A DNA stretch of 64,000 nt from Microlunatus antarcticus (GTDB lineage: Bacteria > Actinomycetota > Actinomycetes > Propionibacteriales > Propionibacteriaceae), in contig NZ_JACHZG010000001.1 in NCBI RefSeq assembly GCF_014193425.1, forward strand, positions 3,100,001 to 3,164,000, read 5' to 3'. Position numbers and translations under genes: made by a program. Below are positions 11,623 through 11,759 of this stretch, in pieces. The notes below the pieces were generated by a model. The model was given only the letters and a program-made list of their open reading frames with translations, searched no databases and was not told the origin of the DNA. Each line of letters starts with the position of its first letter. The first letter of the stretch is position 1.

Positions 11623-11702
11623 TCCTCGCTGCTGATGGGAGCTGGCCGGGCAGGCAAGAACTCCGCAGCGAGGAGGCCGGCCGTTAAGAGGCCTCGCTGC
11701 GG
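11623..11702 (-). promoter_or_regulatory. leuA attenuator: mutually exclusive hairpins
   Basis: Three strands in transcript order are A (11702 to 11692, CCGCAGCGAGG), B (11673 to 11663, CCTCGCTGCGG) and C (11631 to 11623, CAGCGAGGA). B can pair with A over 11 bp or with C over 9 bp. C contains the leuA ribosome site GAGGA. The leader-peptide stop TAA (11686 to 11684) lies between A and B. A ribosome finishing the leader would cover A and let B mask C. A ribosome stalled early at Leu codons would leave A to pair with B and free C. The mechanism is inferred; the complementarity is seen. Confidence 0.65.
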
Positions 11703-11746
11703 CAAGGAAGGAGAATGAGGGCCCGGAGCCCCAGCGCGCTTGCCAC
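11684..11746 (-). CDS. leuA leader peptide, leaderless, leucine-rich
   Basis: A 20-codon reading frame, VASALGLRALILLPCRSEAS, starting at GTG 11746 and ending in TAA at 11684, upstream of leuA on the same strand. Five of 20 codons are Leu (CTG, CTC, CTC, CTC, CTT) plus one Ile, four of them within codons 7-13. A TAGGGT -10 (11759 to 11754) ends 7 nt before the GTG, so the transcript should begin at or next to the start codon. Its last five codons and stop form one strand and the loop of the following hairpin. This is the architecture of an amino-acid attenuation leader. It is too short for ordinary gene callers. The peptide itself is probably not functional. Confidence 0.7.
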   Translation of the reverse strand: MASALGLRALILLPCRSEAS

Positions 11747-11753
11747 GTTCGTC

Positions 11754-11759
11754 ACCCTA
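11754..11759 (-). promoter_or_regulatory. -10 box (TAGGGT) of leuA leader
   Basis: Minus-strand TAGGGT (11759 to 11754) matches TANNNT, with 7 nt to the leader GTG. The same hexamer with the same spacing precedes the genes at 31574 and 33970. Confidence 0.5.

Follow-up and report, generated by a model that had tools for sequence, protein, structure and literature searches.

A leaderless leucine-rich leader and LEU element upstream of leuA in Microlunatus antarcticus, compared across Actinomycetes

Introduction

According to Seliverstov et al. (2005), leuA is preceded in most Actinobacteria by a LEU element, which combines a leader peptide rich in Leu with a pseudoknot and with a base stem between the Leu codons and the Shine-Dalgarno box (PMC1262725). 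The sites given in that text precede leuA operons, with one more in a transposase gene. Attenuation by the leader peptide was judged unlikely there, and mutations in the leuA leader of S. coelicolor were reported to have effects unlike those of classical attenuation (Craster 1999, as reported in PMC1262725). With no terminator and with mutants that did not fit the classical scheme, the mechanism of the leuA leader was not agreed in 2005 (PMC1262725), and literature searches found no later paper settling it.

Several related leaders have been described. RNA-seq in S. lividans revealed a leaderless 15-residue leader before leuA, LeuL1, with no typical terminator (PMC8079986). Leaders of leuA in Corynebacterium, including C. 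glutamicum, are listed in three reports (PMC5784534, PMC4046766, PMC3890552), and an uORF before leuA is given among the ribosome-protected ORFs of M. abscessus (PMC4974804). The ilvB1 leader of M. tuberculosis, with branched-chain codons in its leader ORF and alternative structures, is described as a transcription attenuator using a Rho-independent terminator (PMC13236596). The same paper cites Canestrari 2020 for translation attenuation in M. smegmatis, where the poly-Cys short ORFs are leaderless and sense an amino acid. The locus presented here resembles LeuL1 in being leaderless, Leu-rich (MRFGLLLLSCRGEGL in LeuL1) and free of a typical terminator; the passages describing LeuL1 make no mention of pairing with the ribosome site. 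It also resembles the poly-Cys attenuators, the likeness being taken by way of the citing paper (PMC13236596), but cysteine is sensed there and leucine here.

Results and Discussion

The region upstream of leuA in M. antarcticus

The window, i.e., the whole stretch of M. antarcticus DNA that was analysed, is 64 kb long. The sequence-only reading of this DNA had placed upstream of leuA a TAGGGT box, a 7-nt gap, a 20-codon frame with five Leu codons and a TAA stop in the loop of an 11-bp hairpin (A:B), and these coordinates proved right on re-reading (Table 1). It had also noted a second copy of strand A, strand C, carrying GAGGA and able to pair with B. The copy and its pairing were found as described, with a length of 10 bp (11632-11623) instead of 9. 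As an observation on the sequence, the leader frame and the alternative pairings were confirmed.

Table 1. Features of the leuA locus of M. antarcticus and LEU elements preceding other genes
Feature	Position or locus	Strand	Basis and remarks
TAGGGT, -10-like box of putative leaderless promoter	11759-11754	-	sequence; 7 nt 5' of leader start
Leader ORF, GTG to TAA, MASALGLRALILLPCRSEAS, 20 codons, five Leu	11746-11684	-	sequence; translation predicted
Leader start GTG	11746	-	sequence
Leader stop TAA	11686-11684	-	sequence; inside A:B hairpin loop
Strand A, CCGCAGCGAGG	11702-11692	-	sequence, relatives and covariation
Strand B, CCTCGCTGCGG	11673-11663	-	sequence, relatives and covariation; pairs with A, 11 bp
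Register of B for C, UCCUCGCUGC	11674-11665	-	10 bp with C; includes U11674, directly 5' of B
Strand C, GCAGCGAGGA	11632-11623	-	sequence; contains leuA Shine-Dalgarno GAGGA
Strand D, UCCUUGC	11708-11702	-	7 bp with GCGAGGA of C, one of them G-U
Shorter D register UCCUU, on Leu codons	11712-11708	-	5 bp possible; read from sequence
S2 5' strand GGCCGG, pseudoknot	11682-11677	-	in A:B loop; pairs with 11649-11644
S2 3' strand CCGGCC	11649-11644	-	partner of GGCCGG; comparison
leuA, 2-isopropylmalate synthase, 582 aa	9869-11617	-	Pfam HMGL-like, IPMS_D2, LeuA_dimer
leuA ATG	11617-11615	-	sequence
leuC preceded by LEU element	L227, L228, L231, L234		Leu-rich leaders and A:B
leuB preceded by LEU element, ilvE-like gene next by eye	L241, L242, L243		Leu-rich leaders and A:B
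Second leuA-like gene preceded by LEU element	L233, L235, L236, L238, L239, L240		Leu-rich leaders and A:B
Lone LeuA_dimer-domain protein, 145 aa, after LEU element	L237, about 2084-2521	-	PF08502, E 7.7e-6

Three of the Leu codons of the leader lie among the eight codons before A, in a run interrupted by Ile (LILL). In its 7-bp register, D starts at the final base of the last Leu codon and continues through the codons for Pro and Cys. The duplex energies were -21.2 kcal/mol for the 10-bp B:C and -10.2 kcal/mol for the 7-bp D:C. The 20-aa peptide had no match in NCBIfam or Pfam. The divergent neighbour (11836-12846, plus strand) matched GNAT acetyltransferases (Acetyltransf_1, E 6e-11).

The 64-kb window holds three distinct 9-nt A/B/C triples (six counting both strands) and 40 Markov resamples of it had a mean of 1.7 on both strands. 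On its own, a 9-nt triple proves little; the standing of the element above chance comes from its conservation (184 of 189 leuA upstream regions by script, as described below). The search for exact three-way repeats was a poor detector that missed most relatives, and such triples also occur elsewhere in the window.

The feature upstream of leuA is a member of the published LEU element and not a new kind. It lies before leuA, assigned by Pfam, in an actinobacterium, its leader ORF has a run of Leu codons (five in 20 codons), and a pseudoknot of two helices is present, A:B of 11 bp and S2 of 6 bp, both of which exceeded partners from other genera. From the published text and legends, we infer that A:B and S2 are the two helices of the 2005 pseudoknot (PMC1262725). 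A difference from the element as described in that text is that, within the window's genus, the strand with the ribosome site also copies A and can pair with B; the locus is an ordinary member of the published element with a clade-specific extra pairing. Rfam matches to positions 11000-12500 of the window were all far below the gathering scores (E 0.94 or worse), and 10 related loci had no match.

A consensus scan for an intrinsic terminator with a U-run returned sites that both fell inside the leader ORF (11733-11716) and none after A:B. An intrinsic terminator before the gene, as in classical transcription attenuators, is absent from the locus, whereas the M. tuberculosis ilvB1 leader is reported to use a Rho-independent one (PMC13236596). 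The proposal of translational instead of termination control made in the sequence-only reading is therefore reasonable. The lack of such a site past the hairpin also agrees with transcription attenuation of another kind, most likely Rho-dependent, in which leader translation would set the exposure of the RNA to Rho before leuA. Rho was raised for cys leaders by Seliverstov et al. (PMC1262725) and the ilvB1 leader provides a described transcription attenuator, but the covariation presented below extends into the ribosome-site strand C, which a switch acting by termination alone does not need. Such attenuation is considered unlikely.

Between the stop of the leader and the ATG of leuA lie 66 nt that include half of the 11-bp hairpin. 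This spacing speaks against translational coupling, in which ribosomes finishing the leader would re-initiate at leuA and the structures would merely tune the process. The leader does precede leuA, and re-initiation at bacterial leader peptides was hypothesised in a 2016 paper (PMC4833913). Coupling would, however, predict that leucine raises leuA expression, opposite to what a biosynthetic gene calls for, and appears highly improbable.

Distribution of the element among relatives

The comparison comprised 189 leuA upstream regions, i.e., the window, 80 named genomes and 108 genomes of the window's family (190 minus one repeat). Elements were located by a script that required Leu codons in frame, followed by a motif resembling A and by a B strand able to pair with it. 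The short Leu-rich ORF followed by the A:B hairpin, expected in relatives from the sequence-only reading, was found in 184 of the 189 regions. In two more (L011 and L058) the element was present by eye, and two others (L089 and L134) were too short to judge, which gives 186 of 187 usable regions. The sole usable region without the element was L177. Five repeats among the 184 positives (L045, L098, L124, L127 and L154) leave 179 distinct element stretches.

A covariance model built from 96 of the elements matched 175 of 197 genomes and 29/29 genera in the family of the window, 283 of the 295 genomes sampled from the class together with 98/102 of its genera, and 68 of 396 genomes of the phylum. 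The element is thus present in nearly all sampled genomes of the class, yet lacks an Rfam match in the scanned loci. In the M. antarcticus genome, the leuA site was the only strong match (86.6 bits; all others E>1). The 2005 text reports no LEU element in P. acnes (PMC1262725); all 29 sampled genera of the family had matches here.

Leader peptide, putative leaderless promoter and position of the stop codon

The leaderless start proposed from the window alone recurred in the relatives. In 136 of the 184 loci, an in-frame leader start follows a TANNNT box at a distance of 5-9 nt, against 12.3 expected from base shuffles; at 5-11 nt, the number rises to 173 of the 184, the wider range being given without a shuffle expectation. 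The window site had no match to a sigma-70-type two-hexamer promoter. Leaders of the relatives are Leu-rich with CR[SGD]E-type endings. The last leader Leu codon is CTT in 168/184 loci, and CTT makes up on average 0.51 of the Leu codons in leaders against 0.007 in leuA genes, the share being higher in the leader in 76 of 78 named loci; the leuA gene of the window has no CTT among its 44 Leu codons. Since CTT forms a G-U pair with the GAGGAG site, this preference may stem from the rarity of the codon instead of from pairing.

In 178/184 loci, the leader ends 0-12 nt past A. Such a position suits the switch of the sequence-only reading, in which A:B and B:C alone would alternate, a ribosome at the stop would cover A and let B mask C, and the Leu run would have no role in the RNA. 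Against this switch, translation in five loci (L060, L065, L067, L069 and L071) would end only 30-33 nt past A, where B has already begun. In L158, a stop codon between the Leu codons and A would end the leader before A, and A:B is kept.

Helices supported by comparison

In the genus-level test, the pairing of a strand with its own partner was compared with its pairing with the partner strands of other genera, averaged over 53 genus groups, which are not fully independent. It covered 181 loci, i.e., the 184 without L070, L079 and L180 (misplaced leuA start or an A:B loop too short), and was repeated without the five repeats (176 loci); the group counts below hold for both sets. Four control pairings that were not expected to form gave 20-28 of 53 groups (p>=0.5).

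The A:B helix exceeded pairing with other genera in 52 of 53 groups. In 93 distinct sequences, 98.1% of its cells pair, and 54 double-change cells were counted against 16.2 after shuffling, which bears out the covariation of A and B anticipated from the window. Pairs changed on both sides numbered four, with no excess over shuffles (112 of 500 reached it). In Streptomyces loci such as L017, L018 and L020, A:B has a conserved mismatch, one non-pairing position (CGCGGCGAG with CTCCCCGCG) shared by 36 loci.

The S2 helix exceeded other genera in 40/53 groups (p=1e-5). It is built from differing matched sequences, such as GGCCGG:CCGGCC in the window, GGCCGAC:GTCGGCC in Streptomyces, GCCAGAT:GTCTGGC and GGTCGACT:GGTCGACC, and reaches at least 5 bp in 100/105 family loci and 73/76 named loci (chance not subtracted). 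Covariation of A:B and S2 also agrees with the proposal of Seliverstov et al. that a regulatory protein binds the pseudoknot and the leader peptide is secondary, for which a phylogenetic profile (ML1624 orthologues) and the Leu-codon mutants were put forward (PMC1262725). A protein site does not need the Leu codons, the stop position, the leaderless box and the CTT bias, all of which are widely conserved, and a protein-bound pseudoknot is considered quite improbable.

The D:C helix, i.e., the stem between the Leu run and the Shine-Dalgarno box, had support across genera, with 34/53 groups positive (p=0.0009), its window form lying mainly on the Pro and Cys codons past the run. It has at least 7 bp in 55/105 family loci and 44/76 named loci (chance not subtracted), and at least three Leu-codon bases are part of it in 87 of the 93 loci where it is this long. 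These data suggest that the end of the Leu-codon run can mask the leuA ribosome-binding site. The B:C helix exceeded other genera in 32/53 groups (p=0.0075; 0.0072 without the repeats). It has at least 7 bp in 64/105 family loci but in just 11/76 named loci (chance not subtracted), and in 16/16 loci of the window's genus.

The two helices part in some loci. D:C is good and B:C poor in L124 (identical to L005; UCCUUCGCUG:CAGCGAAGGA, 10 bp, B:C 6), L166 (10 bp, B:C 3), L054 (8 bp, B:C 4) and L056, and L142 has D:C of 10 bp (UUCUUCACUG:CAGUGAGGAA) with B:C of 8. The converse, a matched B:C with no D:C, was seen in Ornithinimicrobium L040 and in two genus groups (g11 and g12). Where D:C showed no excess, B:C was positive in 10/19 groups (p=0.11), and in the reverse test D:C was positive in 12/21 groups without B:C excess (p=0.048). 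In S-type leaders, D and B are alike, so D:C and B:C are hard to separate. When strands were permuted among Streptomyces loci only, none of the four helices stood out, not even A:B, because the strands are nearly alike there; in 35 non-Streptomyces loci, D:C had z 1.3, reached by 15 of 200 permutations.

Taken together, the comparison supports four helices, A:B, S2, D:C and, limited to a clade, B:C, which is the weakest of them and whose independence is borderline. The structural reading of the window alone held for A:B and was otherwise incomplete, missing both the S2 pseudoknot and D:C. B:C, the heart of that first model, retained support across genus groups and was narrowed to a clade. The 10-bp B:C of the window and its presence throughout the genus favour a switch made of A:B and B:C alone; the covariation of D:C and S2 and the rarity of B:C in named loci are left unexplained by it, and such a switch seems rather unlikely.

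Predicted opening of the ribosome site

Opening of the leuA ribosome site was predicted by nested folding in 174 loci, those with no ribosome-site motif found or with a leader stop past the start of B being dropped. Removing repeats and counting each genus once left 169 loci in 48 groups, and a ribosome-site end swapped in from another genus was used as the control. The site was predicted to be more open with D masked, as by a stalled ribosome, than with the ribosome at the stop in 41/48 groups, and more open than in free RNA in 45/48 groups (49/59 and 54/59, respectively, in an earlier grouping that counted some genera repeatedly). The excess over the swapped control was weak for stalled over stop (28/48 groups, p=0.045) and amounted to 30/48 groups for stalled over free (p=0.022); with some genera counted repeatedly, the p values were 0.0047 and 0.0066, respectively. 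Closing of the site by a ribosome at the stop beyond that of free RNA was not borne out (free over stop in 15/48 groups, p=0.98).

The window's genus ran against the prediction, with values of 0.24 stalled and 0.21 at the stop for its own site and 0.40 and 0.20 for the control. In the window RNA itself, nested folding left the site paired, the probability of being unpaired equalling 0.01 free, 0.01 stalled and 0.11 at the stop, and C paired with B whatever was masked, which again favours the switch of A:B and B:C alone. A:B together with S2 would outcompete B:C in the window only with a pseudoknot penalty of at most 4.2 kcal/mol or by folding order; across the 16 loci of the genus, this limit ranged from 3.7 to 15.9 kcal/mol.

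Proposed control of leuA

The best explanation, which we regard as somewhat better than an even chance, is leucine-responsive translational attenuation of leuA through a leaderless leader gene and an RNA switch. Strand D, made of the end of the Leu run and the next codons, would act as the anti-Shine-Dalgarno strand for the leuA ribosome site C, and A:B and S2, lying 3' of D, would form the pseudoknot. With ample charged tRNA-Leu, the ribosome would clear D and halt beside A, leaving C masked by D. In the window's genus and some relatives, a ribosome over A would also let B mask C as a second masking strand. When leucine is short, the ribosome would stall on the Leu codons and cover D, A with S2 would keep B, and C would be free for translation of leuA. 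Both D registers of the window should lie under a ribosome that has stalled at the final Leu codons. In the window's genus, S2 and the folding order (A, B and S2 being made before C) may set the ON state, B:C serving as an added lock.

The leader, the leaderless box, A:B, S2, D:C and the clade-limited B:C are supported by the sequence comparison, from which we infer the stalling, the masking and the level of control within the LEU-element model. Several points stand against translational attenuation. In the RNA of the window, the ribosome site is predicted to stay paired in every folded state, and the opening test exceeds the swapped-site control only weakly, with the window's genus going the wrong way. 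The 7-bp D:C of the window reaches a single Leu-codon base, the third of the final Leu codon, 19/53 genus groups show no D:C excess, and leader-peptide attenuation was judged unlikely in the 2005 text (PMC1262725). On the other hand, masking of C by D would explain the effects of the S. coelicolor leuA mutations that were unlike classical attenuation. The CTT bias of the leaders, the leader stop close to A, the wider predicted opening with D masked and the lack of a terminator-like site past A:B also count in favour of translational attenuation. The comparison thus supplies a model with named compensating pairs, by which the old question of the leuA leader becomes testable.

LEU elements upstream of other leucine genes

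About 85 of the 283 positive class genomes (hand count) had two or three model matches. Twenty model-match stretches were taken, mostly second matches in a non-random choice. The element was followed by leuA in four, a second leuA-like gene in six, leuC in four and leuB in three; of the remaining stretches, one had a lone LeuA_dimer protein, one a small protein with no Pfam match, and one (L226) was set aside as a false match. Pfam was run for one leuC (L228, Aconitase family) and one leuB (L241, Iso_dh), the others being named by eye. In the M. antarcticus genome, neither inspection by eye nor a simple scan for short ORFs and hairpins revealed an element in the 450 nt upstream of leuC and leuB.

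These placements differ from the sites given in the 2005 text and, as far as the literature searches show, most subscription papers lying outside them, LEU elements are new before leuC and leuB, as they are before a second gene resembling leuA and before a lone LeuA_dimer gene; the element is thereby placed before several leucine-pathway genes and not the main leuA alone. A wider proposal, to be taken as tentative, is that the LEU element constitutes a leucine regulon of Actinomycetes whose sensor codons overlap the anti-Shine-Dalgarno strand, so that the stalled ribosome would itself lift the mask. The ribosome site of Propionibacteriaceae and of some others would have been reshaped to pair with B too, giving a two-lock bistable switch, and the element would have been recruited by leuC and leuB as well as by the second leuA-like gene and the lone LeuA_dimer (leucine-sensing) gene.

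Sixteen of the sites taken again showed leaders and A:B, together with S2-like helices (4-8 bp, given without a control) and further A:B types, e.g., CCGCTGCGGGG:CCCCGCAGCGG. The stretch with the small protein, L244, had an arrangement like that of L237.
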